NCBI RefSeq assembly: GCF_900589395.1
Contig: NZ_UUIS01000055.1
Location: 1-64,000, forward strand
Length of the DNA stretch: 64,000 nucleotides
Source of the DNA: Pseudomonas viridiflava
Lineage (GTDB): Bacteria; Pseudomonadota; Gammaproteobacteria; Pseudomonadales; Pseudomonadaceae
Direction of reading: 5' to 3'
In this document: positions 13,732-38,199 of the stretch, piece by piece
Numbering within the stretch: position 1 is the stretch's first letter
Layout: every line of letters starts with the position of its first letter
Notes under the pieces: generated by a model
The model's input: only the letters and a program-made list of their open reading frames with translations
The model's database searches: none
Told to the model about the DNA's origin: nothing
Program-made: the position numbers and the translations under genes

Positions 13732-13992
13732 TCAGGGCGTGGTCAGGCACTCATGGGCCAGGTCGACGACCTTGCCCAGCAGCGCTTCCTGTTCCAGCGA
13801 GAAGTCGCCGTACTGGGCCATGGCCATGCAGGTCGACAGGCGCTTGAGGCTTTCATGATGCTCGGCGGCGCCCAGGTTGGGCTGGCGCAATTGGGCGGCA
13901 CGGTCGGCAAAGAATTCGGCCGAGGGCTTGCCGTCCTTGTTCTGGGCCTGGATCAGGTTGTCCAGGGCAACCAGCAGTTCGTTCAAGGGCAT
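13732..13992 (-). CDS. Small protein coupled to Rhs1, likely immunity protein
   Basis: The protein has 86 residues. Its ATG shares one base with the Rhs stop (TAATG, 13994-13990), so the two are translationally coupled. It is predicted helical and acidic, with no signal peptide or membrane segment. This fits a cytoplasmic partner such as LNELLVALDNLIQAQNKDG followed by LSTCMAMAQYGDFSLEQEALLGK. I recognise no family. Position directly after a polymorphic toxin tip is the usual place for the cognate immunity gene, so its role is inferred from context. Confidence 0.75.
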   Translation of the reverse strand: MPLNELLVALDNLIQAQNKDGKPSAEFFADRAAQLRQPNLGAAEHHESLKRLSTCMAMAQYGDFSLEQEALLGKVVDLAHECLTTP

Positions 13993-16900
13993 TACCAGGG
14001 CACTCCTTTGGTGTTGATGACCCAGGCGCGGGGCAGGTTGGTGACGACGCCTTGATATGCACCACCGGGATAACCCGGGCCTTGCGGGGCGGCGGTGCCT
14101 TCGCTGATCCAGGTGCCTTTGGGCACCTCGAATTCCGAAACCTTGGTGATCTTGATGTTCCAGGCCCGGTCGATGGCCAGGTCCTTGCGCAACTGGTCTT
14201 CGGTGCCGAATTTCTTGTTGGCCAGCCACGACACCTTGCGCCCGGTGCGGTTATCCACGCCATGGTACTTGTAGTAGCGCTCGTTACGCGTCAGCTGACG
14301 GTTCTTGTACACACCACCGGTAAAGCTGTCGGTGGTGCGCTGGTCATGCACAGGCCCCGGCGGACGCTTGCCACTGGCAGTGCCGCACTTGCTCAGGCCC
14401 AGCGGGTCGGCCCATACCAACGGATTGGGCGCATAGGCATACAGGTTCAGGCCGCCGGCCAGGCCGATCGGGTCGGGGGTGGTAAAGCGGCCGATGTCCG
14501 GGTCGAAAAAGCGCAGGGTGTTGTAGTGCAACCCGGTCTCGCGGTCCAGGTACTGGCCCTGGAAGCGCAGGTTCTGCTCTTCGACGTAATGGGCGGCGCG
14601 GGTTTCGCGCACGGTATTGCCCCACACCTGGTACTGCGCCTGCCACACCGCCTGGCCGTCGCTGTCGGTCAGTTGTTCGGGCAGGCCGTTGAGGTCGTTG
14701 TGGTAGTAGCGCACCTGTTGCTGGCTGCCGCTGCCATCGACCCGCGCCAGCGGCTCGAAACTGCCCTGGGTATAGAGGTACAGGCTGGTCAGGTGGTTCT
14801 TGTGCTCCTGCAACAGGCGCATGCCGTCCCAGACAAAACGGGTCTCGCACAGCACCAGGCCGCTGGCGTGCCGCTCGACCTTGGCGATGCGCCGGCCCAG
14901 CGGGTCGTACTGCATGCACACGCGATGACCGTTGGCGTTGCGCACCTCGATCAGGCGGTGTTCGGCGTCGTAGGCAAAGCGTTGCACGCCGTGGCGGGTG
15001 CTGCGCTTTTCGATCAGCCGGCCAAAACCGTCGTAGCGGTAGCGCTTGTCCTGCCACACCAGCAGCCTGTTATGCCGCACCAGGCCGCCGTTTTGCGGCC
15101 CGTCGAGCAGGTTGGCGGCGGCGTCATAGGCGAAGGTTTCGCTCTGGCCGGTCAGGCTGTCCTGGCTGGCGATGATGCGCCCGGTGCTGTCATGGCCCAG
15201 CAGCTGGCGACCATCGCCGGGCGGCTGGCGATCGCGCCGGATACGGGCCACCAGGTTATCGATCTGGTCGAACTGATAGTCGGTCTCGCCCAGCCCCGGC
15301 AAGGCCGCCGGCTGGCCGGTCGGGCGGCGCAGGCGGCTGCGCAGCCGGCCACTGCGGTCGTACTGACTGCGGGTGCTGATCTGCCCCTGGGTGCGCAGCA
15401 CTTCGCGGTGCAGGCGGTCGCGCTCGAAATCGCTGATCACCTGGCCATCGAGGTTCAACTGGTGCAAATGCCCGCTGCCGTAATACAAGCGGTTGAGCCA
15501 GCGCCCGTCAGGCAGGCAGGTCTGCACCAGATTGCCCAGCTCATCGTGACGATGCGCCAGGCGCCCGGCCGCACTGCGCTCTTCGCGCAACTGGCCCAGG
15601 GCGTCATAGGCAAAGTCCAGTTGTTGCCGCTCGCCAGCCGGGTCGGTGAAACTCACCGCCGTCAGGTTGTCCAGCGCATCGTACTGGTAGTCGGTGCGTC
15701 CGTTGCCGGTGATCTTGGTCGTCAGACGGCCGGCGGCATCGTGCTGCAACTCGTGGATGATGGGCGCCGCGGGCGGCTCGACCAGGGTCGCCACGGCGGT
15801 GGCCAGCGGCGCCGGCAGGTGCTCGACACGGGTCAACTGGTCGCGGGCGTCATAGGCATAGCGACGACGTCCGCCATCAAGGCCCTGTTGCTCGACCAGC
15901 CGGTCGCCGGCGTCCCAGGCAAAGCGGTAGCGCTCGCCGTTTTCATTGCTCAGCGCCAGCAGCCGCGCATAAGCGTCGTATTCGAACTGCACCTGCCGGC
16001 CCTGGGCATCGATGCGCTGGCGCACCTGGCCACGGCGGTCATAGCGATAGCGGGTGGTGTGGCCGGCCGCATCGGTATGGCCGATCAACTGGCCGTGGGC
16101 GTCGCGCAGGTACTGCTCGCGGCGTCCGTCAGGCAACTCGTGCGCCAGCAGCCGGCCCTGGGCATCGTGCTGATACAGCGAACGCTCGCCCAGCGCATCG
16201 GTAATGCAGGTCAGGTTGCCGTGCCGGTCGTAGGCGTAGTCGGTGGGGTAGCCGGAACAGTCACTGCGCTGGATCAACTGGCCAAAGCGGTTCCAGCGCA
16301 ACTGCTGGCGCTTGTCGGCGGCATCGATGATCTCAACGGTCTGGCCATGGGCGTCGTAGCGGTAGCGGGTCACCTGGCCAAGCGGATCGGTCTCGCGAAT
16401 GCAGTTGCCGCGGGCGTCATAGTGAAACTGCCAGGTGTTGCCGGCCGCATCGGTCTCGGCCTGCGGCAGCGCCCAGTGCTCCAGCCACACCGTGGTGGTG
16501 CGCCGGCCCAGCGGGTCGAGGCTGGCGCTGAGGTTGCCAGACTCGTCGTAGTCAAAGCGGTACTGCCCGCCTTGCGGGTCGGTGGCGCCGAGCAACTGGC
16601 GCTCGTCGTCCCACTCGAAGCACCAGGTCTGGCCGAGGTTGTCGCGGTATTCGGTGACCTGGTGCTGGGCGTTCCATCGGCGCTCGCTGGTGCGGCCCAG
16701 GCCATCGCGCACGGTGGTGCGCCCGGCCTCCAGGTCGTAGTCGAAGCCGTACTCGTCGCCGTCATCGGTCCAGTGCCGCACCACCCGCCATTCGCGGTCC
16801 TCGACCAGCGCCCAGGCATAGAAACAGCGCAGCCCGGACGGCAACTGATGCTCGACCATGCGCCGGCCGGCGTCATAGGCAAAGCGCCGGCGCACCTGAT

Positions 16901-18407
16901 CCTCGGCGTCACGCACCTCGCTCAGGTCGCCGGCTGCATCGTAGGCATAGCGGCTGAGCACATCGCGCTGGCCGTCCGTATACAGGCGTTCGATATGGCT
17001 GACCCGTTGTGGCCATTGCGCGCTGTAGCCCAGCTCGACCTGCACCGCTTGGTCTTCATCGTGCAGGCGCTGCAGGCGGCCATGCTCGTCGTACACCAGG
17101 TGGATGCGGTTATCGTTGCGGTCGCCCTGTTGGGTCAGGCGCAGGTGCCGGGCGTCGTGGGGGCTGGGCTCGAACAGGCGGTACAGGCCGTCGTCGCTCT
17201 CGATCAGCAACTGGCCATTGCTGTGCCGGCGTACGACCAGGCCTTCGCCGGCACTGAACACCGCGCCACCCAAGGGGATGCTGCCCATGTCGATGCGCCG
17301 GCCCTGTTCGTCGACATACAGCAGCGACTCGCCGCCGTCGGCATGCGCTTCAAGCGTCACGCTCACTTCCCAGCCCACGCTCCAGCCGGCGCCGAACAGA
17401 CCGTCACGGCGCTCGTCACGGCTGTTGTAGACGCGCTGCCAGTCAATGGGCAGCAAGGCCGGCACGACAAAGTCCAGCTCCATCGCCTCGCCCAGCACCT
17501 TGGCGCCAGTAGGCGCATGCACCGGGTTGGGCGAGCCGACAATGGCCTGGGTGAGGGCATTGGTGGCCTGGCCGACGACAAACGCATTGACGCCCCCGAG
17601 CAGCATGCACGGCAGATTGCTGAGGAACTTGCCCTTGCTGCCCTTGAGCATCAACAGGGCGGTCACCGCCAGGCCCACGCCCGGGGTCTTGCCGCTGCGA
17701 ATCTCGCGCACGGTCAGCGTGCCGCCGCCGATGCGCACATTCGACGAAATCGGCCCGGACGACACCACCACGGCCTCGCAGGTGCTACGGTCGCCGCTGC
17801 GCACCGCCGGCTGGCTGTTGATGGTGACCTTGTCCGAGCCTTCGGCCAGGTATTGCGGCGGCATCGGCGGGTGCTTGGCGCACAGCACCAGGTCCTCGGG
17901 CAGCGGCTGCGCCCCTGGTGCCGGCATGGCCACCGTAGGCCGCCACATCTGCGAAAAGAAGCCCTTGGCGATGTCGAGGTAACTGGCTTCGGCGTCGTCC
18001 GAGCCTTCCTGGTCACTGGGCGCTGCACCGGGCGGCACCCAGCCGGCGGCGCGCGCGGCCGGACGGCTGTTGGTCAGGGTGTCGAGCGAGCCGGTGCTGA
18101 TGGTGGCCTGGACGGTGGGCGGGAACAGGCTGTTGCCGATGCCCTCGCATAATCGCGACAGCCCGGTGTCGGCACCGGTCTTGGCCATCACCACGCCGAC
18201 CACCAGCCCGACCACCGCCCCCAGCAGGCAGGCGCCCAGCCCGCCGGTGGCGACCGTGATACCGGTGGCCGCCACCACGGCGGCGGTGGCCAGTGCGCCA
18301 ATCGCCACGCTGGCGGCGACCTCCAGCACGCCGCCGACAATGTCGGCCAGCATCGAGGTGTGTTCGAGTCCATCGCCCAGCCGGGCAGCCCAGATCGCGT
18401 CAGACAT
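13992..18407 (-). CDS. rhs: PAAR-Rhs polymorphic T6SS effector 1 (unrecognised C-terminal toxin)
   Basis: The protein has 1471 residues. The N-terminus (about 20-75) has Ala/Gly-rich transmembrane helices of the type bound by Eag chaperones. A PAAR-like region follows (about 95-250, with SDKVTINSQPAVRSGDRSTCE). Then comes the YD-repeat Rhs shell, and the autoproteolysis-type core end (GLHYNTLRFFDPDIGRFTTP, then NPLVWADPLGLS) at about 1300-1336. The last 134 residues are the toxin tip. They contain RYYKYHGVDNRTGRKVSWLA and later VPKGTWISEGTAAPQGPG, a layout faintly like NAD-using (ADP-ribosyltransferase or NADase) toxins, but I cannot assign a family. A coupled 86-residue gene follows. The shell is nearly the same as Rhs2 while the tip is unrelated, as expected for tip exchange. 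Confidence 0.93.
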   Translation of the reverse strand: MSDAIWAARLGDGLEHTSMLADIVGGVLEVAASVAIGALATAAVVAATGITVATGGLGACLLGAVVGLVVGVVMAKTGADTGLSRLCEGIGNSLFPPTVQATISTGSLDTLTNSRPAARAAGWVPPGAAPSDQEGSDDAEASYLDIAKGFFSQMWRPTVAMPAPGAQPLPEDLVLCAKHPPMPPQYLAEGSDKVTINSQPAVRSGDRSTCEAVVVSSGPISSNVRIGGGTLTVREIRSGKTPGVGLAVTALLMLKGSKGKFLSNLPCMLLGGVNAFVVGQATNALTQAIVGSPNPVHAPTGAKVLGEAMELDFVVPALLPIDWQRVYNSRDERRDGLFGAGWSVGWEVSVTLEAHADGGESLLYVDEQGRRIDMGSIPLGGAVFSAGEGLVVRRHSNGQLLIESDDGLYRLFEPSPHDARHLRLTQQGDRNDNRIHLVYDEHGRLQRLHDEDQAVQVELGYSAQWPQRVSHIERLYTDGQRDVLSRYAYDAAGDLSEVRDAEDQVRRRFAYDAGRRMVEHQLPSGLRCFYAWALVEDREWRVVRHWTDDGDEYGFDYDLEAGRTTVRDGLGRTSERRWNAQHQVTEYRDNLGQTWCFEWDDERQLLGATDPQGGQYRFDYDESGNLSASLDPLGRRTTTVWLEHWALPQAETDAAGNTWQFHYDARGNCIRETDPLGQVTRYRYDAHGQTVEIIDAADKRQQLRWNRFGQLIQRSDCSGYPTDYAYDRHGNLTCITDALGERSLYQHDAQGRLLAHELPDGRREQYLRDAHGQLIGHTDAAGHTTRYRYDRRGQVRQRIDAQGRQVQFEYDAYARLLALSNENGERYRFAWDAGDRLVEQQGLDGGRRRYAYDARDQLTRVEHLPAPLATAVATLVEPPAAPIIHELQHDAAGRLTTKITGNGRTDYQYDALDNLTAVSFTDPAGERQQLDFAYDALGQLREERSAAGRLAHRHDELGNLVQTCLPDGRWLNRLYYGSGHLHQLNLDGQVISDFERDRLHREVLRTQGQISTRSQYDRSGRLRSRLRRPTGQPAALPGLGETDYQFDQIDNLVARIRRDRQPPGDGRQLLGHDSTGRIIASQDSLTGQSETFAYDAAANLLDGPQNGGLVRHNRLLVWQDKRYRYDGFGRLIEKRSTRHGVQRFAYDAEHRLIEVRNANGHRVCMQYDPLGRRIAKVERHASGLVLCETRFVWDGMRLLQEHKNHLTSLYLYTQGSFEPLARVDGSGSQQQVRYYHNDLNGLPEQLTDSDGQAVWQAQYQVWGNTVRETRAAHYVEEQNLRFQGQYLDRETGLHYNTLRFFDPDIGRFTTPDPIGLAGGLNLYAYAPNPLVWADPLGLSKCGTASGKRPPGPVHDQRTTDSFTGGVYKNRQLTRNERYYKYHGVDNRTGRKVSWLANKKFGTEDQLRKDLAIDRAWNIKITKVSEFEVPKGTWISEGTAAPQGPGYPGGAYQGVVTNLPRAWVINTKGVPW

Positions 18408-18809: not shown

Positions 18810-19424
18810 CTAACCTTGCAGCAGCGCAAGGTCGAACGCCTTGTTTTTGACAATCGCCCGGCGCGTCCTGAGGGTTTCCATCAGCCCTGAGGCCAGCAGG
18901 TCCGGATTGCACGCGGCAGCACAATGAATGAACACGGCGGGGTAGCTGTAATCCCCCGGCGCCTCCAGCACATGGGCCAGGGTGGACTCATCCGGAAAAA
19001 TGCACCCGGTGATCAGCGGGATGTAGTGGTTTTCCAGCACGCCCTTGATGTGCTCGCACACCTGCGCCGTGGCGCTGGCGGGCGGGATGGGAATCACGCC
19101 GTCAATGCGCGGGCTGAATTTCTTGTCCTGCCTGCCGCTGGTGCAGAAGGAAAAACACCCTGGGTTGCCCGCATTCAGGTTGCTGCGGTAGGGCGCGTTG
19201 ATGCCTTGCATGCGCTCGAACACCGGACCACCCGTGACCATGCCACTCAAGTAATAGGCCCGCGAGTTGATCGAATAGAGAAAATACAGCTCGGCCACCA
19301 CGACCTTGTTCAGGCGAAACTTCAGGTGGAATTTGGAAGCACTCATGGGCAGCGCCGAGCATTTCAGGGTTTTGAGCATGCTGTTCAGGGCGGTCTGGAA
19401 GGCGAGCTTGTCGTCGGCGAACAT
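18810..19424 (-). CDS. Unrecognised protein of the inter-Rhs array
   Basis: The protein has 204 residues starting at ATG 19424; the longer frame to 19559 lies inside the preceding gene. It has no signal peptide and no membrane segment. Mixed alpha/beta composition is seen, with KFHLKFRLNKVVVAELYFLY near the N-terminus and ADDKLAFQTALNSMLKTLKC at the start. I recognise no family. It is the last of eight small same-strand genes between the two rhs genes, so an orphan immunity or accessory role is the simplest guess. G+C content is below that of the Tss genes. Confidence 0.65.
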   Translation of the reverse strand: MFADDKLAFQTALNSMLKTLKCSALPMSASKFHLKFRLNKVVVAELYFLYSINSRAYYLSGMVTGGPVFERMQGINAPYRSNLNAGNPGCFSFCTSGRQDKKFSPRIDGVIPIPPASATAQVCEHIKGVLENHYIPLITGCIFPDESTLAHVLEAPGDYSYPAVFIHCAAACNPDLLASGLMETLRTRRAIVKNKAFDLALLQG

Positions 19425-19482
19425 GATTTTCCGGGTCCGGGTGATTGGGCAATGAGGGGGCGTTGCGATTGCGCAACAGACC

Positions 19483-19785
19483 CTAGTCACCGGCGAATGC
19501 AATCTCTGCCAGATCAACGTCGCCAAGCAGAGCCAGCACATTCTCCAGCGCCTGGGCATGCTCTGCAGGCAGGCGGGTTTTCTCTGATTCGAGCGCCGTC
19601 ACAAGCCTGAGAATCTCATCGTTCCTGAATGAACAGTCGGTCAGGTAATAGTCCTTCAAATGATAAAGAATGGATGTTTTCCTGATCCTCACGTCGTTCC
19701 TGAACAGGGCTTGATGAAGACCCTCCGGGAATTCGGCCCTCGACGTGGTGCCGTCGGTTTTACGAATCATGATATCCAGCGCCAT
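19483..19785 (-). CDS. Orphan paralogue of the Rhs2 immunity protein
   Basis: The protein has 100 residues and aligns without gaps to the protein at 23529-23831, with 68 of 100 positions identical (shared LKDYYLTDCSFR and EFPEGLHQ). That paralogue sits directly after the Rhs2 toxin tip; this one follows a zinc-ribbon gene by three bases and has no toxin next to it. It is best read as an orphan immunity gene kept after its toxin tip was lost or replaced. It has no signal peptide, so it would act in the cytoplasm. Confidence 0.75.
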   Translation of the reverse strand: MALDIMIRKTDGTTSRAEFPEGLHQALFRNDVRIRKTSILYHLKDYYLTDCSFRNDEILRLVTALESEKTRLPAEHAQALENVLALLGDVDLAEIAFAGD

Positions 19786-19788
19786 CGT

Positions 19789-20313
19789 TCAACCTCGTAC
19801 CTGTTCGGTTCCCGTGTCCATCGCTTCCTGTTCGACCCTGGCTTCGTAATCTTCAGGATGCTGCTCCAGCGGCGCCGGTGCCCATGCTGTGTGCGTTTTT
19901 TCATAGCAGGCCGCACGGTAGGCGTAGCGGGCAACTATTTGGCTGATCTCACGTTGTAGAGCCGCTTCGTGATACCACTGGCTGCCGCACTCGCCGCAAC
20001 CCAGAAAGGCAGGCGTATCAGCAATCCACTCGACCCACCCGGAACACTGCGCAACAGGGCACCGGTAGGCACCCGATTGCTCCTGCGGCGACACCTGAAT
20101 GTCGCGACTGTCCACATACTGCGTAGAAGTGCCGCAATAAGGGCACTCGATCATCATGAATGGCTGCCCTTTATCCTTCATTGCCTTAACGAATACCTGC
20201 TGTTGTTCGTCAAGGTTGAAGACGTGCCTGCACACTTGGCAGCGTGCACGTTCAAGGGTGTTCATAAGGCGTTCATCCGGTTTGAGTGTGCCTTTGGTCT
20301 GCGGCTTTTGCAC
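19789..20313 (-). CDS. Zinc-ribbon protein in the inter-Rhs array
   Basis: The protein has 174 residues. I choose GTG 20313, which has a perfect AGGAGG 7 bases upstream, over the TTG at 20352. Four Cys pairs (CQVCRHVF, CPYCGTS, the pair in CPVAQC, CGECGSQW) predict two zinc ribbons. The sequence between is polar, and the C-terminal 50 residues are helical and acidic. No nuclease or polymerase motif is visible. The ribbons could bind nucleic acid or simply hold the fold. It is followed 3 bases later by the orphan immunity paralogue. Function is unknown. Confidence 0.65.
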   Translation of the reverse strand: MQKPQTKGTLKPDERLMNTLERARCQVCRHVFNLDEQQQVFVKAMKDKGQPFMMIECPYCGTSTQYVDSRDIQVSPQEQSGAYRCPVAQCSGWVEWIADTPAFLGCGECGSQWYHEAALQREISQIVARYAYRAACYEKTHTAWAPAPLEQHPEDYEARVEQEAMDTGTEQVRG

Positions 20314-20375
20314 GGGGTTCCCTCCTTGTATTTCAATCGCTCTTTTCGTCAAGGCAGGCGATCAGCCCGGCCCCA

Positions 20376-20966
20376 TCAGCACGACTGTTGAAGGGTGAGA
20401 TAAGAGTGGTCATGCGCGTTGAAAAAAACGTAGGCCTGTGAGGTGTCATGACTCAGCCCGCTGACATCCAGTTGCCCGACAAACACCAGGGGTTTGCCCT
20501 GGTCAATAGGCCAGGCAGGCGCCTGTAGCCACTTGGGCGGTGTTTTCAGGTAGCGAAATTCATGTTTGATCCTGTCTTTGAGCCAGGCCTGTAGCGCCTT
20601 GGGCTTTTGCGACGGCGCACTGTCCAGAAGGGTCGACAGATAATCAGCCGACAGGCTCAGCCATTTTGGCTGGACGCTGAGCAGCAGATTGAATAAATCC
20701 TCATACTTCTGGCTGCGTTCATGCTCGACAGAGCGGCTGTTCAAGAACCCGGACAGCAGGACTTGAGTGTTGAAGACAGACGCGATATCGGTGTAATCCT
20801 GCTCGCTTAAAAACGTATGCAAGTCAGGCGCTTCGACATAGGCCGGAAGCGCAAATGGCTCTTTGAGGACTGTCAGTAATGTGGGCGTTTCTGCCAAGTG
20901 GTGCGCGAACGCTGCAGGCGTTATCGACCCTTCTACGAATGCCTGTATGAGGCTCAGCGGTGGCAT
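20376..20966 (-). CDS. Unrecognised array protein, immunity-like
   Basis: The protein has 196 residues, soluble, with a helical N-terminal two-thirds. The C-terminal segment reads KPLVFVGQLDVSGL and then AYVFFNAHDHSYLTLQQSC, with beta strands similar in style to SUKH/Imm-type proteins. A DNA fragment resembling its 3' end recurs at 22666-22712. It lies between an Imm11-like gene and the zinc-ribbon gene on the same strand. I infer an immunity or orphan-immunity role from position only. Confidence 0.65.
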   Translation of the reverse strand: MPPLSLIQAFVEGSITPAAFAHHLAETPTLLTVLKEPFALPAYVEAPDLHTFLSEQDYTDIASVFNTQVLLSGFLNSRSVEHERSQKYEDLFNLLLSVQPKWLSLSADYLSTLLDSAPSQKPKALQAWLKDRIKHEFRYLKTPPKWLQAPAWPIDQGKPLVFVGQLDVSGLSHDTSQAYVFFNAHDHSYLTLQQSC

Positions 20967-21041
20967 GGAGGTCTCCTTGAGTGTCCCTTCACCAAGGACG
21001 TAGCTCGGTACCGCGTACGCTTGAATAGCATAGGGAACAAT

Positions 21042-21650
21042 TCAATTCTGAGCGTAGGGAATAAGCTTGCGTTGCAGGCTATAGAAGCTTATTCCGGTTC
21101 CAGTATCGAACCCGCCAGCAATAAGTTTTTCCGCCAACATTTCCGAGACAAGAAGATCCAGGGATTGTGCCTCCCTGGCAATGGCGTGCTGAGTCATGGC
21201 GTCCTCCATCAAGTGGATTTTTTTGAAATAAATAATCGTTCCTTCTTCGTCAGCTTTCGCATCGGATTTTTCAAGGTCGATGGCATTTATTGCATGCGTG
21301 GCATTGAGGATTAAATAGTCAAGTTGCGTCTTGCTGCCTGCCGCATGAATGGCCTTGGGGCGGATAGTTTGAATATCTGCGCTCACCTGTGCGAGAAGAA
21401 ACTCAGCCAGCCGGGCGCTGACCAACGGGATGCCACCCAACAGCCACAAACAATCAAAACGGCTTATTTTTTTCTCTGGATCAGCAAAATAAAGCGTGGG
21501 GATGTCCATGTCGACAGGGTAACGCTTGCCTTGTAACAGCGCGAGGTAATCGAAGTCTGAGCCGGGCGACTCATAAGCCCCTTCTTCATTATCGTAGGCG
21601 CCAATTGATTTTTCTCGGTAGTCGATGGGGGCTTTCCAGGTCAGTGTCAT
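21042..21650 (-). CDS. Imm11-like (DUF1629-type) putative immunity protein
   Basis: The protein has 202 residues. The pattern matches what I know of the Imm11/DUF1629 group. CLWLLGGIPLVSARLAEFLL and IQTIRPKAI are followed by DYLILNATHAINAIDLEKSD, and near the end by SEMLAEKLIAGGFDTGTGIS. That order (a position for an Asp-rich turn, then a C-terminal GxTGxxF-like segment) is typical. The family neutralises diverse polymorphic toxins. No cognate toxin is adjacent; the gene is one of eight between the rhs genes. The assignment is by motif memory, without a search. Confidence 0.6.
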   Translation of the reverse strand: MTLTWKAPIDYREKSIGAYDNEEGAYESPGSDFDYLALLQGKRYPVDMDIPTLYFADPEKKISRFDCLWLLGGIPLVSARLAEFLLAQVSADIQTIRPKAIHAAGSKTQLDYLILNATHAINAIDLEKSDAKADEEGTIIYFKKIHLMEDAMTQHAIAREAQSLDLLVSEMLAEKLIAGGFDTGTGISFYSLQRKLIPYAQN

Positions 21651-21747
21651 GGTGTCTCCTCGATCATCAAGGCGCCTGGCACAGGGGCAGGCTCCTCTGG
21701 AACAGGCGGACAGAAAAGCGGCCGTATCAGCGGCATACCCGACCTGC

Positions 21748-22602
21748 TCAGCTTCTTTTCTTCAGACACTGCTCAACCTCAGGCCGGGTATGCGTGTAGT
21801 GTTTTTTCTGGGGAAAAAAGTCGACCTGCTCCAGGCCGGCAGCCGCCAAGAGTGGATTTAAATTGCCATCCTTCAAATCCCAGAACTTGAAGGCCTTCAA
21901 TGATTTCATCGCGGGAACAAAAGCGACGGAGTCAAGCGAGGAAATAAAGACATGTTCCAGACTTTCCTGTCTGGCCAGCAGGCTGAAATCAGTTAATCCC
22001 TTGCATTTTTCAATGGCCAGACGGCGCAGGTGAGCCAGTCCGTTTATCGCGGAAATGTCGTTCAATTTGCTGCAATGATCAATGCTCAGATAGTCGAGAT
22101 GCTTGAGCCTGTCCAGACCGTCAAGAGTGCTTATCGAGCCTCCGCTGATTCTTAATGTCGTCACGCCGGGCGCATCAAGAAATGAAAGGTTCGTATTCTT
22201 GAGCCCCGTCAGGAGCAGGTCCTTGACGCCAGGCAGTGACAGGGGGGCGATAACATCGCTCGAACGCGTCAAGTAAAGCGTATCCAGTGTGTGCAGCCGA
22301 CCATAGTCCAGCGCTCCGGCGAGGTAGGGCAGGCTCAGCGAGGTCAGGGATCGACACGCATAAAGGGGCGACAGGTCAGTCTTTTTCAGGTTGATGTCAC
22401 TGGCAATATCCAGTGAGAAGACATCATGGTCGTCGGCCAGGGGGCTCAAATCCAGAGGCGTGTCAGACGCACCTGCGGTTTCGTCCTTGAGGACTCTTAT
22501 GCGGTGATGGCCTTTGCTTTTGGCCTGTTTGAAGCCCGACGAAAAGTAGGGGGCAAGAATATCAAAGGTGTCGATTTCTTCATTGTAGATGTGGTTTTTC
22601 AT
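21748..22602 (-). CDS. Leucine-rich-repeat protein in the inter-Rhs array
   Basis: The protein has 284 residues from ATG 22602; the frame opens earlier with a TTG at 22620, which I think is not used. Six to eight degenerate LRR units of about 21-24 residues can be read (LTSLSLPYLAG, LDTLYLTRSS, VKDLLLTGLKN, VTTLRISGGSI, LDYLSIDHCSKL, LRRLAIEKCKGL, LEHVFISSLDS). There is no signal peptide. LRR scaffolds bind proteins, and some Rhs immunity loci encode them. A binding role against a toxin tip is plausible but not shown. Confidence 0.68.
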   Translation of the reverse strand: MKNHIYNEEIDTFDILAPYFSSGFKQAKSKGHHRIRVLKDETAGASDTPLDLSPLADDHDVFSLDIASDINLKKTDLSPLYACRSLTSLSLPYLAGALDYGRLHTLDTLYLTRSSDVIAPLSLPGVKDLLLTGLKNTNLSFLDAPGVTTLRISGGSISTLDGLDRLKHLDYLSIDHCSKLNDISAINGLAHLRRLAIEKCKGLTDFSLLARQESLEHVFISSLDSVAFVPAMKSLKAFKFWDLKDGNLNPLLAAAGLEQVDFFPQKKHYTHTRPEVEQCLKKRS

Positions 22603-22660
22603 CTTCGGATTATCCCGCAATCAGGCTGGCGGCTCGTCAAGACACTGGCCGTCTGGAGGG

Positions 22661-23528: not shown

Positions 23529-23831
23529 TCAATCACCCGCGAATGAAACCTCTGCCGCATCAACCTCAGTGAGGGCAGTGAGTACATTTTCCAGTGCCTG
23601 CACCTGGTCTTCAGGCAGTCGGGATTTTGCTGATTCGAGAGCCGCTATAAGCTTGGGAATGTCGTCGCCCCTAAATGAACAATCGGTCAGGTAGTAATCT
23701 TTCAGGGGAAAAAGAATGTTGTTTTTCTTGATCTTGACGTCTTTCCTGAACAGTGACTGATGAAGGCCTTCCGGAAACTCATGCCTTGATGTGGCGCCCT
23801 CTCGTTTACGAATGATGATGTCTAAGGCCAT
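23529..23831 (-). CDS. Likely immunity protein for Rhs2
   Basis: The protein has 100 residues. Its ATG at 23831 lies 10 bases inside the 3' end of rhs2, so it is translationally coupled to the toxin. It has no signal peptide and no membrane segment, with a predicted alpha/beta start and a helical C-terminus. A 68%-identical paralogue lies at 19483-19785 without a toxin. I do not recognise the family. If the Rhs2 tip is an RNase, a small acidic protein that blocks its active site would be expected. Confidence 0.78.
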   Translation of the reverse strand: MALDIIIRKREGATSRHEFPEGLHQSLFRKDVKIKKNNILFPLKDYYLTDCSFRGDDIPKLIAALESAKSRLPEDQVQALENVLTALTEVDAAEVSFAGD

Positions 23832-26800
23832 TCTGTTATCTCTCCTCGTTCCAGCGGTTTGAAGTCTTTTTGCGGAAAACTGGTAACAATGTCACCATTT
23901 TTCTCGACGACGACACGCACCTTGCTCAAGGGCGCTCCGTCAGGATCAACCCCGAAGACCTTGCCCTTGTAGTCTTTTTCATAAATGTATCGATCACCGG
24001 ATTTCACGATCCTGTCAGGATTTCGAAACACATTGCGCGCTGTTTTTTTCCACTCTGCATTGGAGACCGTCCATTTGCTCTTGTGAGCCTTGCCTGGCCG
24101 GTTGCCAACATGGCCCTCCTTGATATGTGCCACACCTTTCCTGCTTAGTTTCAGCTTGGTTGGCCGGCAACTCCACCCCCACGGATCCACCCACCCCAGC
24201 GGATTCGGCGCGTACTGGTACAGGTTGATCCCACCCGCCAACCCGATCGGGTCGGGCGTGGTGAAGCGTCCGATGTCCGGGTCGTAGAACCTGAAAGTGT
24301 TGTAGTGCAGGCCGGTTTCCCGGTCCAGGTACTGGCCTTGGAAGCGCAGGTTCTGTTCTTCGACGTACCAAGGCTCGCGCACTTCGCGCAGGGTGTTGCC
24401 CCACACCTGGTACTGCGCCTGCCACACGATCTGGCCGTCGTGGTCGGTGAGTTGTTCGGGCAGGCCGTTGAGGTCGTTGTGGTAGTAGCGGATGCGCTGC
24501 TGTTCGCCGCTGCCATCGACACGGGCCAGGGGTTCGTAGCTGTCTTCGCGGTAGACATAGAGGCTTTGCAGGCCGTTGCGGCATTCCTGCAGCAGGCGCA
24601 GGCCGTCCCAGGTGAAGCGGGTTTCGCTCAGCAACTGGCCGTGGCGGTCGTGTTCGGTCTTGGCGATGCGTCGGCCCAGCGGGTCGTAGTGCATGCGCAG
24701 CCGGTGGCCGTTGTCGTGGCTCACTTCGATCAGCCGGTGTTCGGCATCGTAGGCAAAGCGCTGTACGCCGTGGCGGGTGCTGCGCTTTTCCACGGTGCGG
24801 CCAAAGGCGTCGTAGCGGTAGCGTTTGTCCTGGTAGGTCAGCACCTGGTTGTGCCGCACATATGCTGCGCCATCCAGCGGGCGGTCGAGCAGGTTGGCGG
24901 CGGCGTCCCAGGTGAAGGTTTCGCTGTGCCCGGTCAGGCTGTCGTGGCCGGCGACGATGCGGCCGCTGGCATCGTATTGCAACAGGTCGCGGCGGTCCTG
25001 GCGCGTGGCGCGATCACGCTGCAGGCGCCCGACCAGGTTGTCGGCCGGGTCGAAGTCGTATTGCTTTTCAGCCTGGGCCGGCAGTTGCGGCGGCTGCTGG
25101 GTCGGCCGGCGCAGTCGTGCGCGCAGGCGGCCGGCGCGATCGTACTGGCTGCGGGTGCTGACCTGCCCTTGGGTACGCAGCACTTCGCGGTGCAGGCGGT
25201 CACGTTCGAAGTCGCAGATCACCTGGCCGTCGAGGTTGACCTGATGCAAATGGCCGCTGCCGTAGTACAGCTGGTTGAGCCAGCGCCCGTCGGGCAGGCC
25301 GGTACGGATCAGGTTGCCCAGTTCGTCGTACTCATGCTGCAAGGTGCCGTCGCGGCTGTGCTGCTCGCGCATCTGCCCCAGGGCATCGTAGACAAAGCCC
25401 AGTTGCTGCACCTGGCCGTCAAGGCCGGTGAAGTCCACCCCCGCGAGCAGGTCCAGCGGGGTGTAGCGGTAGGCGGTCAGGCCATCGGCCGTGGTCTTGG
25501 CCACCAGCCGGCCCAGGGCGTCGCGTTCGAAGTGCTGCTCAAGCGCCGGCAGCGGCTGCTCGGGCATCAAGGCCAAGCCATTGCCATGCGCGGCCGGCAG
25601 GTGCACCAGGCCGATCAGGTTGTCTTGTGCGTCATAGGTGTAGCGTTGGGCGCTGCGGTCCAGGTCCTGCTGCTCGACCAGGCGGTCGGCGGCATCCCAG
25701 GCAAAGCGGTAGCGTTCGTCGTTCTCGTTGCTCAGCGCCTGCAGGCGACCATAGGTGTCGTACTCGAACCGCACCCGATGCCCGAGCGGGTCGAGGCGCT
25801 GCTGCACCTGGCCACGGCGGTTGTAGCCATAGCGGGTGGCGTGGCCGGCCGGGTCGATGTAGGCGGTCAGCAGGCCGCTGGCATCGCGCTGGAACTGCTC
25901 CACCCGGCCATCGGGCAGCTCGCTGCGCAGCAGGCGGCCCTGGGCGTCGTGTTCGAACAGCGTCTGTTCGCCCAGGGCATCGGTGATGCTGCGCAGGTAG
26001 CCGTGGTGGTCGTAGACGTAATCGGTGCTGTAGCCTGTGCAGTCGGTGTATTGCAGCAACTGGCCGGTCGCGTTCCAGCGCAGGTGCTTGTGCCGGCCGG
26101 CGGCGTCGGTGATCTCCACCACCTGGCCCTGGCTGTCGTAGCGGTAGCGGGTCACCTGTCCCAGCGGATCGGTCTCGCGGATGCAGTTACCGCGCGCGTC
26201 GTAGCGATACTGCCACTGGCCGCCGGCCTTGTCGGTGTCGCTTTGTGGCAGCGACCAGTGCTCCAGCCACGCGGTCGACTCGGTCTGCCCCAGCGGGTCG
26301 CTGGTAGTGGTCAGGTTGCCGGCCTCGTCGTAGCTGAACTGCCATTGACCGCCCTGCGGGTCGGTAGCGCCCAGCCACTGGCGCTCGTCATTCCACTCGA
26401 AATGCCAAGTGTGGCCCAGCGGATCGACGGACTCGACGATCTGGTGCTGGGCGTTCCAGCGTCGCCGGCTGACGCGGTTCAGGCTGTCGCGAATGGTGGT
26501 GGTGCCGGCCGCCAGGTCATAGTCGAACGCGTAGTCCTCACCCTCGTCGGTCCAGTGCCGCGTCACGCGCCATTCACGGTCCTCGACGTGCGCCCAGGCG
26601 TAGAAGCAGCGCAGGCCGGTGGGCAACTGGTGCTCGACCATGCGCAGGCCGTCGTCGTAGCAGAAACGCCGTTGCACCCGGCCGGTGGCATCACACACCT
26701 CGGCCAGTTGTCCCAGGTCATCGAAGGCATAACGGGCCAGCACCAAGGGTGGCGCGTCCGGGTAGAGGCGCTCGACATGGCTGAGCCGGCGCGGCCATTG

Positions 26801-28186
26801 CGCGCAGTACACCAGCGCCAGGCGCACGTCGTCGAAGGTGTCGCGCAGGCCGCTTATCCGGCCCAGTTCGTCGTAGTCGATGAAAATGCGGTTATCGTTG
26901 CGATCTCCCAACTGGCTCAGGCGCAAACAAGTGGCCTCCAGCGGACTGGGCTCGAACAGCCGGTACAGGCCGTCGTCGCTCTCGATCAGCAGCGTGCCAC
27001 GGGCATGACGGCGCACCACCAGGCCTTCGCCGGCGCTGAACACCGCCCCGCCCAAGGGGACAGTGCCCATGTCGATGCGCCGTCCCTGCTCGTCGGTGTA
27101 CACCAGCCGTTCGCCGCCCTCAGGGTGCGCCTCGACCTGCACGCCGACTTCATAGGCCACGCTCCAGCCGGCGCCGAACAGCCCGTCGCGCCGTTCATCA
27201 CGGCTGTTGTAGAAGCGCTGCCAGTCGATGGGCAGGATGCCGGGCAGGACGAAATCCAGCTCGTCCTGGCCGCTGAGCACCTTGGCGCCAGTGGCGGCAT
27301 GCACCGGGTTGGGCGAGGCGCTGGTGGCATTGACGATGGCCTGGGTGGCCTGGCCCGACACGTAGCTGTTGGCCAGGCCCAGCGCCATGCACGGCAGGTT
27401 GCTGAGGAACTTGCCCTTGCCGCCCTTGAGCATCAGCAGCACGGTCACCGCCAGGCCCACGCCGGGGGTCTTGCCGCTGCGGATTTCGCGCACGGTCAGC
27501 GTGCCGCCACCGATGCGCACGTTCGACGAAATGGGCCCGGCCGACACCACCACCGCCTCGCAGGTGCTGCGGTCGCCGCTGCGCACCGCCGGCTGGCCGT
27601 TGATGGACACCTTGTCCGAGCCTTCGGCGAGAAACTGCGGCGGCGTGGGCGGGTGCTTGGTGCACAGCACCAGGTCCTCGGGCCGCGGTTCGGCACCGGG
27701 GGCCGGGGTGGCGACGGTGGGACGCCACATCTGCGAAAAGAACTCACCGGCCATATCGAGGTAACTGGCCTCGGGCGCCTCGCCTTCCTGTTCGACAAGC
27801 TGCACACCTGGCGGCACCCAGCCGGCAGCACGGGCGGCCGGACGGTTGTTGGTCAGGGTGTCGAGCGAGCCGGTGCTGATGGTGGCCTGGATGGTGGGCG
27901 GGAACAGGCTGTTGCCAATGCCCTCGCATAATCGCGACAGGCCGGTGTCGGCGCCGGTCTTGGCCATGACCACGCCCACCACCAGCCCGACCACCGCCCC
28001 CAGCAGGCACGCGCCCAGCCCGCCGGTGGCGACGGTAATGCCGGCGGCGGCGGCCACGGCGGCGGTGGCCAGTGCGCCGATCGCCACATGGGCGGCGACC
28101 TCCAGCACGCCGCCGACAATGTCGGCCAGCATTGAGGTGTGTTCAAGGCCATCGCCCAGGCGGGCGGCCCAGATGGCGTCAGACAT
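23822..28186 (-). CDS. rhs: PAAR-Rhs polymorphic T6SS effector 2 (possible RNase tip)
   Basis: The protein has 1454 residues with the same plan as Rhs1: N-terminal transmembrane helices (about 20-75), PAAR-like region (about 95-250), YD-repeat shell, and GLHYNTFRFYDPDIGRF leading to NPLGWVDPWGWS at about 1333. The 119-residue tip differs fully from Rhs1. It is basic, with GVAHIKEGHVGNRPGK, KSKW, a central RYIYEKDYKGKVFGVDPDG and a closing RVVVEKNGDIVTSFP. His-rich starts and a final VTSFP-type strand are common in BECR-fold toxin RNases, so an RNase is my best guess without search support. The eagR gene lies 33 bases upstream and an overlapping immunity-like gene follows. Confidence 0.93.
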   Translation of the reverse strand: MSDAIWAARLGDGLEHTSMLADIVGGVLEVAAHVAIGALATAAVAAAAGITVATGGLGACLLGAVVGLVVGVVMAKTGADTGLSRLCEGIGNSLFPPTIQATISTGSLDTLTNNRPAARAAGWVPPGVQLVEQEGEAPEASYLDMAGEFFSQMWRPTVATPAPGAEPRPEDLVLCTKHPPTPPQFLAEGSDKVSINGQPAVRSGDRSTCEAVVVSAGPISSNVRIGGGTLTVREIRSGKTPGVGLAVTVLLMLKGGKGKFLSNLPCMALGLANSYVSGQATQAIVNATSASPNPVHAATGAKVLSGQDELDFVLPGILPIDWQRFYNSRDERRDGLFGAGWSVAYEVGVQVEAHPEGGERLVYTDEQGRRIDMGTVPLGGAVFSAGEGLVVRRHARGTLLIESDDGLYRLFEPSPLEATCLRLSQLGDRNDNRIFIDYDELGRISGLRDTFDDVRLALVYCAQWPRRLSHVERLYPDAPPLVLARYAFDDLGQLAEVCDATGRVQRRFCYDDGLRMVEHQLPTGLRCFYAWAHVEDREWRVTRHWTDEGEDYAFDYDLAAGTTTIRDSLNRVSRRRWNAQHQIVESVDPLGHTWHFEWNDERQWLGATDPQGGQWQFSYDEAGNLTTTSDPLGQTESTAWLEHWSLPQSDTDKAGGQWQYRYDARGNCIRETDPLGQVTRYRYDSQGQVVEITDAAGRHKHLRWNATGQLLQYTDCTGYSTDYVYDHHGYLRSITDALGEQTLFEHDAQGRLLRSELPDGRVEQFQRDASGLLTAYIDPAGHATRYGYNRRGQVQQRLDPLGHRVRFEYDTYGRLQALSNENDERYRFAWDAADRLVEQQDLDRSAQRYTYDAQDNLIGLVHLPAAHGNGLALMPEQPLPALEQHFERDALGRLVAKTTADGLTAYRYTPLDLLAGVDFTGLDGQVQQLGFVYDALGQMREQHSRDGTLQHEYDELGNLIRTGLPDGRWLNQLYYGSGHLHQVNLDGQVICDFERDRLHREVLRTQGQVSTRSQYDRAGRLRARLRRPTQQPPQLPAQAEKQYDFDPADNLVGRLQRDRATRQDRRDLLQYDASGRIVAGHDSLTGHSETFTWDAAANLLDRPLDGAAYVRHNQVLTYQDKRYRYDAFGRTVEKRSTRHGVQRFAYDAEHRLIEVSHDNGHRLRMHYDPLGRRIAKTEHDRHGQLLSETRFTWDGLRLLQECRNGLQSLYVYREDSYEPLARVDGSGEQQRIRYYHNDLNGLPEQLTDHDGQIVWQAQYQVWGNTLREVREPWYVEEQNLRFQGQYLDRETGLHYNTFRFYDPDIGRFTTPDPIGLAGGINLYQYAPNPLGWVDPWGWSCRPTKLKLSRKGVAHIKEGHVGNRPGKAHKSKWTVSNAEWKKTARNVFRNPDRIVKSGDRYIYEKDYKGKVFGVDPDGAPLSKVRVVVEKNGDIVTSFPQKDFKPLERGEITEWP

Positions 28187-28219: not shown

Positions 28220-28654
28220 TCAGATCACCGTGTTGAAGCTCAGTGACTGCTTGATGCCCGCCCAGTGCGCGGCTTCCGCCGCTCCCAGTGGCTGGGCCTT
28301 GACGTAGCTGAGCGCCAGCATGCGCCGGGTGTCGGGCAGCACCAGCGCCAGCTGGAATTGCCAGATCTTCTCGTTGCCCTTGCTGAACTGGCTGCGCAGC
28401 TCGATGGCTTCGATTTCCTGGTTCAGGCCCACGTGCAGCGTCTGCACCGGCTCATGCCGCAGGTCCTGCACCTGCTGGCCCAGGCGCTCCAGTTGCGCGG
28501 CAAAGTTGCTGTGCAGCGTCTCGCCGTCGGCCAGCACGCTGCGGCTGACGATCAACGACGTGCCCAGCTCGCCGAACTTGAGGATGTTGATGGTTGCATC
28601 CTGCACCTGTGGGTCGGGCAGGGCGAAACTGAATTCATTGAGGCGGTAAGTCAT
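28220..28654 (-). CDS. eagR: Eag-type chaperone (DUF1795) for Rhs effectors
   Basis: The protein has 144 residues. The sequence (YRLNEFSFALPDPQVQDATI at the start, the middle QTLHVGLNQEIEAIELRSQF, and the end LALSYVKAQPLGAAEAAHW) fits the DcrB-like DUF1795 fold. Eag chaperones bind the N-terminal transmembrane helices of PAAR-Rhs proteins and help load them onto VgrG. It lies directly upstream of rhs2. Since both Rhs N-termini are almost the same, it may serve both. vgrG is upstream, separated by a REPIN-like repeat. Confidence 0.9.
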   Translation of the reverse strand: MTYRLNEFSFALPDPQVQDATINILKFGELGTSLIVSRSVLADGETLHSNFAAQLERLGQQVQDLRHEPVQTLHVGLNQEIEAIELRSQFSKGNEKIWQFQLALVLPDTRRMLALSYVKAQPLGAAEAAHWAGIKQSLSFNTVI

Positions 28655-28817: not shown

Positions 28818-30746
28818 TCAGGTCTTGGGAAATATCTGCTTCACCGCCGCGTCGATCTCGCCCTTGACGCCCTGGCCCTTGGGTTCGGTGCCGGCGCCGG
28901 AGCCGTTGTTCAGGTGCAGGATGTCGCCGGTGTTGATCGTCGCGGTGCCGCTGGCGTAGACGCTGATGTTCACCCCCGTCAGGTTGATCTGCCCGCTGGC
29001 GTTGAGCTCCAGCACGCTTTTGCCGCACACCAGGCGCAGGTTCTCGCCGACCTCGATCAGGTAGCTGCGGCTGATGGCATCGGTCTTGGTATTGCCCACC
29101 AGCAACAGGTCGTCATGCGCCACCGCACGGATGCGGTCGACGCCGATGGTCACCGTCTCGGTGTGGTCCACCACCTTGGTGCGGTTGTTGCCCACCCAGT
29201 GGCTTTCGTCGTTCTCGACCTCGATGTCCTGGTTGCGCTCGGCATGAATGAACAGCTGCTCCTGGCCCTTCTTGTCCTCCATGCGGATTTCGTTGAAGTT
29301 GGCCGGCGTGCCGCCTTTGCTCGAGCGGCTCTTCATGCCGCTCTGGGTCGCGTTGGCCGGCAGGTCGTAGGGCACGGTCTGCTCGGCGTTGTACACCCGC
29401 CCGGTGATGATCGGCCGGTCGGGGTCGCCTTCGAGAAAGCTGACGATCACTTCCTGGCCGATGCGCGGCACCTGCATCGAGCCCCAGTTCTTGCCGGCCC
29501 AGGATTGCGACACACGTATCCAGCACGAGCTGTTCTCGTTGGACTGGTCGTGCCGGTCCCAGTAGAAATGCACCTTGACCCGACCGTATTGGTCGGTCCA
29601 GATTTCTTCGCCGGCCGGGCCCACCACGCGCGCGGTCTGCGGGCCCATGACCTGCGGCTTGAGGGTGCTGGCCAGCGGCTTGAAGCTTTGCTGGGCGTCG
29701 ATGCAGGTCAGCCCGACCTCGAACTGCATGCCGCCACTGCTGCCGGTTTCCAGGTTTTCCTGGGCCACGTAATACCGCGCCGCCACGATCAGGTATTCGC
29801 GGTTCTGGTCCTGGCGGCCGAAGCCGGTCAGGCTGAACAGATGGCCGGCGCTCACGCCCCGGGCGTTGCCGCTCAGCTCGATGCGCTCGTGCAGGCTTTG
29901 CAGGGCTTCCAGGCGCGTGCGGGCGTAATGCTCGCCGTCCTGGTTCTGCTCGTAGGCGCCAGGGTAGTCGTACAGCGGGTAGTCGCCGGCGGTGTGCGGG
30001 CGCGGCATGCTCGAGCGCACTTCCAGGCGCGCACTGGGGCGCTGGAAGTCATAGTCGTTGAGCTCCAGCGAACCTGGCTGCACTTCCTGGGCCAGGCGCC
30101 AGTCGTTGAAGTGATCACGCTCGCGGTGCTGGCCGTCAGGCGGGTAGTACGGCACCGACTCGTAGCCCGGTGCGGTCTGGTGTGCGCCATAGGCGTCGGC
30201 CAGCACCAGCACATGGCGGTCTTTCTCGTGGCGGAAAAAGTAGTAGATGCCTTCGTGTTCCATCAACCGGCTGACGAAATCCAGGCTGGTCTCGCGGTAC
30301 TGCACGCAGTACTCCCACTCCCGGTAGGGGCGGCTGAGGGCGTCCTCGAAATCGGAAAAACCCAGGTCGCGAAACACCTGCTTGATGATCTGCGGCACGG
30401 TCTGGTGCTGGAAGATCCGGCAGTCCGAGGTGCGGCTGAGCAGCCACAGCCACGGCCGCAGGGTCACCTGGTAACTGGCGAACTGGCCACGGTCGACGTT
30501 CTGGCTGCAGCGCGCGACGATGCCGTGGAAGTGCCGCTGGGTCCCGCCGGTCAGTTGCAGCGACAGGCACATGGGCTTGCCGAGCAATTGGTTCAGGTCC
30601 AGGGCGCCATCAGTGGAGGTCAGCTGCAGTTCATAGTTGAACAGCCGCCCCAGCTCATCGCCGCCGCCCATATCCTTGAGCAACAGCACATCCGGCCCCA
30701 GGGGGCTGGTGATCTGCGCCATGCGTGTGAGTTGCTGGAAATTCAT
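28818..30746 (-). CDS. tssI: T6SS spike protein VgrG
   Basis: The protein has 642 residues. It follows the classical gp27/gp5 layout: N-terminal YELQLTSTDGALDLNQLLGK, the middle SLDFVSRLMEHEGIYYFFRHEKDRH, and the conserved IGQEVIVSFLEGDPDRPIITGRVYN OB-fold region. The DUF2345-type beta-helix ends at about residue 610. The C-terminus (ending KQIFPKT) has no added effector domain. VgrG caps the Hcp tube and carries PAAR-Rhs effectors, whose chaperone and genes follow directly. The start could also be Met9. Confidence 0.96.
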   Translation of the reverse strand: MNFQQLTRMAQITSPLGPDVLLLKDMGGGDELGRLFNYELQLTSTDGALDLNQLLGKPMCLSLQLTGGTQRHFHGIVARCSQNVDRGQFASYQVTLRPWLWLLSRTSDCRIFQHQTVPQIIKQVFRDLGFSDFEDALSRPYREWEYCVQYRETSLDFVSRLMEHEGIYYFFRHEKDRHVLVLADAYGAHQTAPGYESVPYYPPDGQHRERDHFNDWRLAQEVQPGSLELNDYDFQRPSARLEVRSSMPRPHTAGDYPLYDYPGAYEQNQDGEHYARTRLEALQSLHERIELSGNARGVSAGHLFSLTGFGRQDQNREYLIVAARYYVAQENLETGSSGGMQFEVGLTCIDAQQSFKPLASTLKPQVMGPQTARVVGPAGEEIWTDQYGRVKVHFYWDRHDQSNENSSCWIRVSQSWAGKNWGSMQVPRIGQEVIVSFLEGDPDRPIITGRVYNAEQTVPYDLPANATQSGMKSRSSKGGTPANFNEIRMEDKKGQEQLFIHAERNQDIEVENDESHWVGNNRTKVVDHTETVTIGVDRIRAVAHDDLLLVGNTKTDAISRSYLIEVGENLRLVCGKSVLELNASGQINLTGVNISVYASGTATINTGDILHLNNGSGAGTEPKGQGVKGEIDAAVKQIFPKT

Positions 30747-36626: not shown

Positions 36627-37126
36627 GAACGTCTCCGTTGTTCGGCAGGCAAGACCTTTACATGGCCCGATTCAAGGTCCAGCTCGGTGCGCAGCAACAG
36701 CGGCAACGCCACCGGCTGCGCCCACAAGTCGCCCTGAATCTCGAAACTCAGCGCGTTATGGTTCATCTGTTCATGGCCCAGATGGGCCCGCACTCGCACG
36801 GTGTGTGCCAGCAGGCGCGGCTCGAAGGTGGTAATCGCCCGATGGATCAGGCTTTCGAGCACCGCAATGTCGACCCCCGACACACTGCTGCCGGCCAGCG
36901 CCGGCAGCCCGTAATTGACCACCGAGGTGCCGGCGGGGGTGTGCAGCGTGGCGTCGGCGTCGAGCAACGAGGTGGTGTTGAGCAGCCAGGTCAGGTCGCG
37001 CAGCACCGAGGCCTTGAGCTGGCTCAGCGACAGCACGCGCTTGTCCGTGCCCTCTTGCAGGTTGCCCGGGTCATCGTCAGTGAGGCGATCAAGCAGGGAA
37101 GGCTGCAGGCGCTCGCGCGGGGTCAT
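36623..37126 (-). CDS. tssE: T6SS baseplate protein TssE (gp25-like)
   Basis: The protein has 167 residues from ATG 37126; a GTG three codons earlier and a longer frame to 37186 are alternatives, since no strong ribosome site marks the start. The gp25 core is clear: [23 protein letters not shown] and the closing [20 protein letters not shown] with the conserved Glu-Pro-Arg-Leu. TssE helps start sheath polymerisation. It is 108 bases downstream of the Tae4 partner gene. Confidence 0.93.
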
Positions 37127-37234
37127 GTTGGTCACCAGTCGAAATTCCAGATCAAGGCTTTCTGATCCCAGTGAGCAGGGCCACACCCCGCAATCCGGCT
37201 GACAGGGCTGTAACTCGGCAAAGTGCCTTCGTGG

Positions 37235-38118: not shown

Positions 38119-38199
38119 CTGTGTGTCTCCTCACCGCCTGCCTGGCAGGCATCCTGATGCCAATTGCCCCCGGCCGGAGCGGCCGGGGACGCCAAGACC

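Follow-up and report, generated by a model that had tools for sequence, protein, structure and literature searches.

The stretch of Pseudomonas viridiflava DNA analyzed here (contig NZ_UUIS01000055.1, 64,000 nucleotides, referred to as the window) encodes on its reverse strand a 1471-amino-acid polymorphic toxin with a PAAR domain and an RHS shell, rhs1 (13992..18407), whose C-terminal tip and the small gene coupled to it are the subject of this work. Identified from the list of open reading frames (ORFs) and a family scan, rhs1 matches the Pfam families RHS_repeat (6.4e-85), DUF6531 (2.8e-17), RHS (9.1e-15), and PAAR_motif (1.7e-8), with a weak match to class I prePAAR (prePAAR_I, 0.0074) that lies under the family cut-off. 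PVHAPTGA occurs toward the N-terminus at residue 295, and by motif reading the C-terminal autocleavage region, DPIGL-X17-DPLGL, spans residues 1312-1338 (14394..14474, reverse strand), with DPIGL at 1312-1316, DPLGL at 1334-1338, and a 17-residue spacer between them, the same spacing as that of Rhs-Pg in the available part of PMC13285283. The residues beyond DPLGL (1339-1471; 13995..14393, reverse strand) form the tip, for which profile and fold comparison lead us to propose a Tne2/TNT-like fold of the kind found in enzymes that hydrolyze nicotinamide adenine dinucleotide (NADases). The rhs1 stop overlaps, as TAATG, the start of a gene recognized from the ORF list and its context as encoding an 86-amino-acid protein, the probable cognate immunity protein of the tip (13732..13992, reverse strand). 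The initial annotation had recognized both the Rhs tip and its TAATG-coupled partner, and this stands, although the tip has 133 residues rather than the 134 it was given. When rhs1 is compared in blocks of 50 residues with a second Rhs protein encoded in the window, the blocks as far as residue 1350 are 38-98% identical and the three later ones 14-20%, and because identity collapses beyond this point, the tip is a real polymorphic unit. Taken together, the PAAR domain, RHS shell, DPxGL motifs, exchangeable tip, coupled gene, and nearby type VI secretion system (T6SS) genes give rhs1, by its sequence features, the make-up of a T6SS Rhs polymorphic effector.

The tip and its partner occur in identical order in four further Pseudomonas records, where the tip is 68-100% and the partner 54-94% identical to those of the window. 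In these complete loci, from P. ovata F51 (L016), Pseudomonas sp. QS1027 (L017), P. gingeri (L018), and Pseudomonas sp. FEN (L019), the partner lies directly 3' of the tip; TAATG is read in L016, L017, and L019, and the coordinates of L018 imply an equal one-base overlap. A fifth locus, L020, ends at a contig edge. The scan of GTDB r220 contigs behind these five loci was pattern-based, so that relatives can escape it. L020 (1-3031) lies on a contig of a metagenome-assembled genome labelled Mycobacterium and has a Pseudomonas-like Rhs with the same tip start, which is probably a binning error. Both tip and partner are under purifying selection, with a dN/dS between the window and L017 of ~0.26 (tip 0.221/0.865; partner 0.434/1.692, where dS is near saturation). 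An RNA hairpin 3' of the partner was not notable (z -1.38).

Beyond these loci, the tip and its relatives are rare among the genomes searched. Whole-genome scans at E <= 0.001, each of which counts the source genome, detected the tip or a relative in 7 of 298 genomes of the genus with the tip as query (close only in G000, G141, and G169), in 3 of 390 genomes of the order with profile A1, in 6 of 369 genomes of the class with profile A3, and in 1 of 150 genomes of the phylum, namely the source genome, with profile A8. Plasmid and phage records gave no match to the tip up to E 1; a later plasmid search gave five matches, of which H1 and H5 were retrieved. Among eight viral-contig scans, five were without a match and two gave one true relative each (L025 and L026). 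A viral-contig match at L021 proved spurious, covering 15 residues at a place with no toxin-like frame. Both L025 and L026 match phrog_24213, a PHROG with no assigned function, at positions 328-444 of 456, and members of this group may carry the same toxin domain.

Curated models offered no direct identification. Neither the tip nor the partner matched Pfam up to E 5, or PADLOC and PHROGs up to E 1, and in NCBIfam nothing rose above the cut-off for either (chance matches at 0.032 and 0.067), while searches of PDB sequences with the tip, the partner, and family subsets returned nothing or chance-level matches. The Pfam TNT model (PF14021) was absent for the tip up to E 5 and for the scanned relatives up to E 1, and when 114 genomes of the class were searched for the TNT family, a single site interrupted by an inner stop turned up (L027), which was not used. 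The earlier statement that the tip belongs to no nameable family is thus true of these four curated libraries. Starting from the tip, genome searches and tblastn nevertheless assembled a wider family, in which the domain sits at the ends of a variety of carrier proteins. These include haemagglutinin or contact-dependent inhibition (CDI)-type proteins (L008, with DUF637 and PT-VENN; L006, with DUF637), Rhs proteins of distant relatives (L009 and L025), DUF6861 (PF21724) proteins (L005, 1483-2835, and L007, 1447-2805, both on the reverse strand), an LXG protein (L024), and frames without a recognized carrier, among them L004, L012, and L026. The presence of a C-terminal domain of this family in the proteins of L005 and L007 suggests that DUF6861 is a toxin carrier; our literature search on DUF6861 and DUF6966 found no paper. 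Two relatives are apparently broken copies: L011 (1510-2151, reverse strand) has a stop codon close to where the match ends, and in L006 (2-1731, forward strand) the toxin domain is spread over two frames. The record containing L024 (921-2982, forward strand) is labelled Enterococcus phage, and with its LXG toxin of the type VII secretion system (T7SS) and accompanying small genes it is probably host DNA.

The wider-family alignment, A8, comprises 15 rows from Rhs, haemagglutinin/CDI-type, DUF6861, and LXG carriers. It leaves out loci that are the window itself (L001, L010, L032, L033, and L035), loci on contigs shared with L017 (L002 and L034) or L019 (L003), L016 (whose tip is that of the window), L020 (contig end), L006 (frameshifted), L023 (domain start missing), and three judged by eye to be too divergent (L005, L013, and L015). 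In the 136-residue fragment numbering, from which 3 is subtracted to give tip numbers, F27, G54, D74, A76, W81, P94, G96, G102, Q107, and Q117 are invariant and Y32, G113, and G114 near-invariant, although restriction to alignable rows biases A8 toward conserved columns. The segments RYYKYHG, KVSWLA, and GTWISEGTAAPQ, in which the initial annotation had seen a faint resemblance to NAD-using toxins, are present in the tip, and the first and last of them coincide with columns that are conserved across the wider family. G110-G111..Q114 (tip numbering) is a GG..Q motif whose Gln is kept in 15 of 15 rows of A8 and in 14 of 15 rows of A11, an alignment that includes Tne2 and in which L014 deviates; we infer that it is the catalytic-site Gln of TNT and AfNADase. 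No Glu is invariant in A8.

It is through this wider family that the tip can be connected to Tne2, the T6SS NAD(P)+ glycohydrolase of P. protegens (PDB 6B12). A fragment of 6B12 retrieved two Tne2 homologues from 249 genomes (L028, 99% identical to the fragment, and L029), and tblastn added a third member, the Streptomyces T7SS protein L031. Aligned with A8 by hhalign, these three gave a score of 34.0 (E 5.8e-5, probability 65.6%, 102 columns) with the GG..Q motif and a GGF strand aligned; none of 400 column shuffles scored as high, the maximum being 20.6. As controls, 18 of 19 Rhs-shell slices scored at most 15.3, the nineteenth extending into the tip, and 265 of the 266 segments taken from window ORFs scored at most 19.2, the remaining one containing the tip (these segments are single sequences from six frames, many of which are not genes). 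With L028 and L029 alone the score was 28.6, which 0 of 300 column shuffles reached. Identity to the Tne2 homologues is 16-18%. In a tree, the window clade and the Tne2 rows form separate groups (supports 99/98 and 99/97), and because of this separation we treat the window clade as distinct within the superfamily and do not count it as Tne2.

Predicted structures point in the same direction. A first AlphaFold2 model, built from five close rows, had a pLDDT (predicted local distance difference test score) of 50.2, and among its listed Foldseek matches Tse6 had the highest probability (0.66). A second model, from six rows including L025 and L026, reached a mean pLDDT of 61.1 and a predicted template modelling (TM) score of 0.54. 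For this model, Tne2 (6b12_A; probability 0.93, TM 0.47, E 0.20) and Tse6 (4zv4_D; probability 0.82, TM 0.46, E 0.14) had the top two Foldseek probabilities of the matches listed, and VIA-align ranked 6b12_A first (Z 5.0, root-mean-square deviation 5.2, 92 residues) and Tse6 seventh (Z 4.4, 91 residues). TNT, the Serratia structure, and AfNADase were not among the Foldseek or VIA-align matches listed, which excludes nothing. A TNT-like palm fold is common to Tne2 and Tse6 according to PMC10539506, a source available in part. None of the profile and fold matches would suffice singly, but taken jointly, and with the GG..Q motif in common, they favor a Tne2/TNT-like NADase as the best reading of the tip, and the earlier hunch of an NAD-using toxin is in this way backed by profile-profile and fold comparison with the Tne2 and Tse6 NADases. 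What these comparisons do not bear out is the proposal of a new toxin class, in place of which the tip appears to form a divergent clade within an NADase superfamily that is already known.

Several of our results weigh against this reading. In a HMMER search of the PDB with A8, two chance matches to influenza haemagglutinin preceded Tne2 (6b12), which came third with E 0.32 and is a lead rather than proof. For the two-homologue score of 28.6, the best shuffle reached 28.4. The window clade alone (A4) scored 21.0 against the Tne2 set, with a probability of 4.4% over 49 columns, so that its placement depends on the wider-family intermediates; in the tree a long branch sets it off from Tne2, and the deep forks are weak (73/74). 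In the second model both ends have a pLDDT below 50, Foldseek returned nothing at E <= 0.001 for it, and in VIA-align unrelated rows follow close behind Tne2 (Z 4.8 and 4.6), all under the trusted range of the tool. Finally, the A8 column of tip Lys42 holds Lys in 4 of 4 rows of the window clade, whereas the other 11 rows all have Arg, and the Tne2 rows of A11 have a gap there. The early-strand Arg is Arg757 in TNT and Arg129 in AfNADase, as given in the available text of PMC10539506.

The exchange of Arg for Lys bears on two alternatives. In the first, the tip would keep an ADP-ribosyltransferase (ART)-like fold but work as a true ADP-ribosyltransferase on a target protein or RNA, with NAD serving as donor instead of being depleted. 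NADase and ART toxins have related folds, most T6SS ART-fold toxins that have been studied hit translation (PMC13285283, in the part available), and Lys in the place of Arg could mean a changed chemistry; we nevertheless consider this unlikely, as Tne2 and Tse6, which the profile and fold comparisons match, are NADases, and A8 conserves GG..Q as its motif, without an invariant Glu. In the second, the tip would have lost NADase activity and would act otherwise or be inactive, for which the replaced family Arg and the low-confidence model could be cited. Strong purifying selection on the tip, whose protein is 100% identical in L016 at 97% nucleotide identity, and the maintenance of the immunity gene, a complete orphan of which is present in one of two tip-less genomes, make such a loss highly improbable.

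The case for the partner as an immunity protein comes from loci that have lost the tip. A partner profile matched 4 of 149 Pseudomonas genomes: that of the window, G141, which also has the tip, and G006 and G070, which lie outside the seven tip-matching genomes of the genus and in whose 3.1-3.2 kb loci tblastn found no tip. RES domains are known NAD-degrading toxins. In L036, from G006 (1492-3247, reverse strand), the same type of rhs gene carries a RES tip (5.6e-14), followed by a 102-amino-acid ORF and then a complete partner gene. The 19 bases GGAGTGCCCTGGTAATGCC, which in the window encode Gly-Val-Pro-Trp-stop and the partner start, are unchanged at the partner gene of L036; they occur in 7 of 37 loci (five copies of the window, L016, and L036), and CCCTGGTAATGCC is also found in L017 and L019. 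The locus in G070, L037, has the same RES tip and a partner shortened to a 50-amino-acid frame (1498-1650, reverse strand), apparently a truncated, decaying copy of the orphan gene. L036 and L037 are thus cases of tip displacement with the immunity gene retained, decaying in one of the two. Because a complete orphan copy persists after a tip swap, preceded by the final codons of the displaced toxin, the 86-amino-acid partner is, from these sequences, very likely the cognate immunity protein of the tip.

The earlier view that this small protein is unrelated to known immunity proteins stands as far as it has been compared: beyond the library and PDB searches above, its comparison with the gene that follows L028 gave nothing significant (E 0.27), and it did not resemble the Tsi6-bearing ORF of L007 (E 15). 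An eye alignment had raised the idea of a divergent DUF6966 immunity protein (PF22294), which was rejected, since the hhalign score of 10.1 was equalled by 37 of 200 shuffles and there is no Pfam match. Tsi6 is the immunity protein of the NADase Tse6. In L007, a 305-amino-acid protein with a C-terminal Tsi6 domain (219-1133, reverse strand; E 9.9e-20) adjoins the DUF6861 effector that bears a distant relative of the tip, and a Tsi6-domain ORF beside a relative therefore supports the NADase reading of the family. Two tandem small genes lie 3' of the toxin relatives in L012 (1899-2564) and L024 (2377-2985), both on the forward strand, and align at 16-29% identity to the DUF6966 protein behind the L007 toxin, as if immunity had been duplicated.

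We place the probability at roughly three in four that the rhs1 tip is delivered by the T6SS, hydrolyzes NAD(P)+, and is neutralized by the partner. On this model, the RHS shell would enclose the tip and cleave itself at DPLGL, and the freed tip would enter the cytoplasm of the target cell. There it would adopt a palm fold like that of TNT and Tne2 and hydrolyze NAD+ and NADP+ to nicotinamide and ADP-ribose(-phosphate), with the Gln of GG..Q in the active-site cleft and Lys42 in place of the Arg of its relatives. In the producer and its kin, the 86-amino-acid protein would bind the tip and block the cleft. According to PMC10539506, available in part, RhsI1 His131, Tsi6 Lys62, and Tni2 Arg153 each place a basic residue into an active site; by analogy, the partner may insert a basic side chain, for which K19 and R51, its invariant basic residues across five rows, are candidates.

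The surroundings of rhs1 provide a plausible delivery apparatus. T6SS core genes found by the family scan lie near the locus (31049..50711) and encode a ClpV-type ATPase (31049..33742), Hcp (38200..38739), TssC (38958..40457), TssB (40467..40982), TssK (44558..45892), and TssM (47187..50711); a VgrG spike protein is encoded at 28821..30746 on the reverse strand (Phage_GPD 6.5e-109, Gp5_trimer_C 3.5e-34, Phage_base_V 1.2e-14). A DcrB-family protein (28223..28654, reverse strand; PF08786, 3.3e-18), of a family that we take to be EagR-like, is a candidate chaperone for the prePAAR transmembrane region. The role of EagR proteins is described in the available part of PMC13285283. A Tae4 amidase is also encoded within the window. 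The second Rhs protein (1454 amino acids; 23822..28186, reverse strand) has an unrelated C-terminal tip with no Pfam match, and an overlapping 100-amino-acid gene (23529..23831, reverse strand) probably encodes its immunity protein. Between the two rhs genes, a row of small genes on the reverse strand (18810..22620) resembles a store of orphan immunity genes, encoding proteins of 249, 100, 187 (zinc-ribbon-like), and 196 amino acids, an Imm11 protein (21042..21650), and a leucine-rich repeat protein (21748..22620).

Set beside known systems, the tip most resembles Tne2 of the Tne2-Tni2 pair, likewise a T6SS effector of Pseudomonas and the best fold match, but the tip is Rhs-borne, whereas the Tne2 homologues L028 and L029 are frames of 430-445 amino acids, and the two form separate clades. 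Tse6-Tsi6 (Tne1) of P. aeruginosa shares a small immunity protein with the system described here, and Tse6 is the second-best fold match, although no sequence link between Tse6 and the tip was found. According to the available text of PMC10539506, some Rhs tips are TNT-like NADases whose immunity proteins are unrelated, and the Rhs1-CT of Serratia marcescens Db10 and SJC1036 (proposed Tne3 and Tne4) follow, by description only, the same overall plan. In the available part of PMC7790226, an Enterococcus faecalis LXG protein was modelled on Tne2 by Phyre2, which agrees with our LXG relative L024. As an alternative to a place on the Tne2 side, the tip might be a member of Tne5 or of some other named ART-fold NADase family. 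Tne5 (Rhs-Pg of Pluralibacter gergoviae), as given in the available part of PMC13285283, is likewise found in Rhs, CDI, and LXG carriers and, like rhs1, has an Rhs tip, DPhGL-X17-DPhGL, a PVHAATGV-like N-terminal site, and a pocket Lys, which is functional. Its tip is 174 residues long, however, with the Streptococcus pyogenes NADase (4KT6) as the closest structure and Lys1392, Glu1482, and Gln1487 as its residues, and the tip of rhs1, with 72 residues from Lys42 to Gln114 in a total of 133, does not fit this spacing; on this loose comparison, made by description only, the alternative seems quite improbable.

NADase Rhs tips as such are already known (proposed Tne3, Tne4, and Tne5). What is new is a clade outside the curated models searched, in which Lys takes the place of Arg and whose immunity protein belongs to no recognized family. 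The clade is not reported in the literature searched, although this does not prove that no report exists, since most subscription papers lay outside its coverage. It is conceivable, though unlikely, that the window clade represents a separate, sixth type of T6SS NAD-consuming family that has an immunity fold of its own and whose chemistry the change from Arg to Lys would alter, for example toward another dinucleotide preference or ADP-ribosyl transfer. Through the present analysis, an uncatalogued toxin-immunity pair gains a likely identity and a testable activity, and NAD-depleting toxins would extend to a clade that the curated libraries searched do not match. The replacement of the tip by a RES domain with the old immunity gene kept is, in addition, a clear instance of tip exchange and constitutes direct evolutionary evidence of protection by the small gene.

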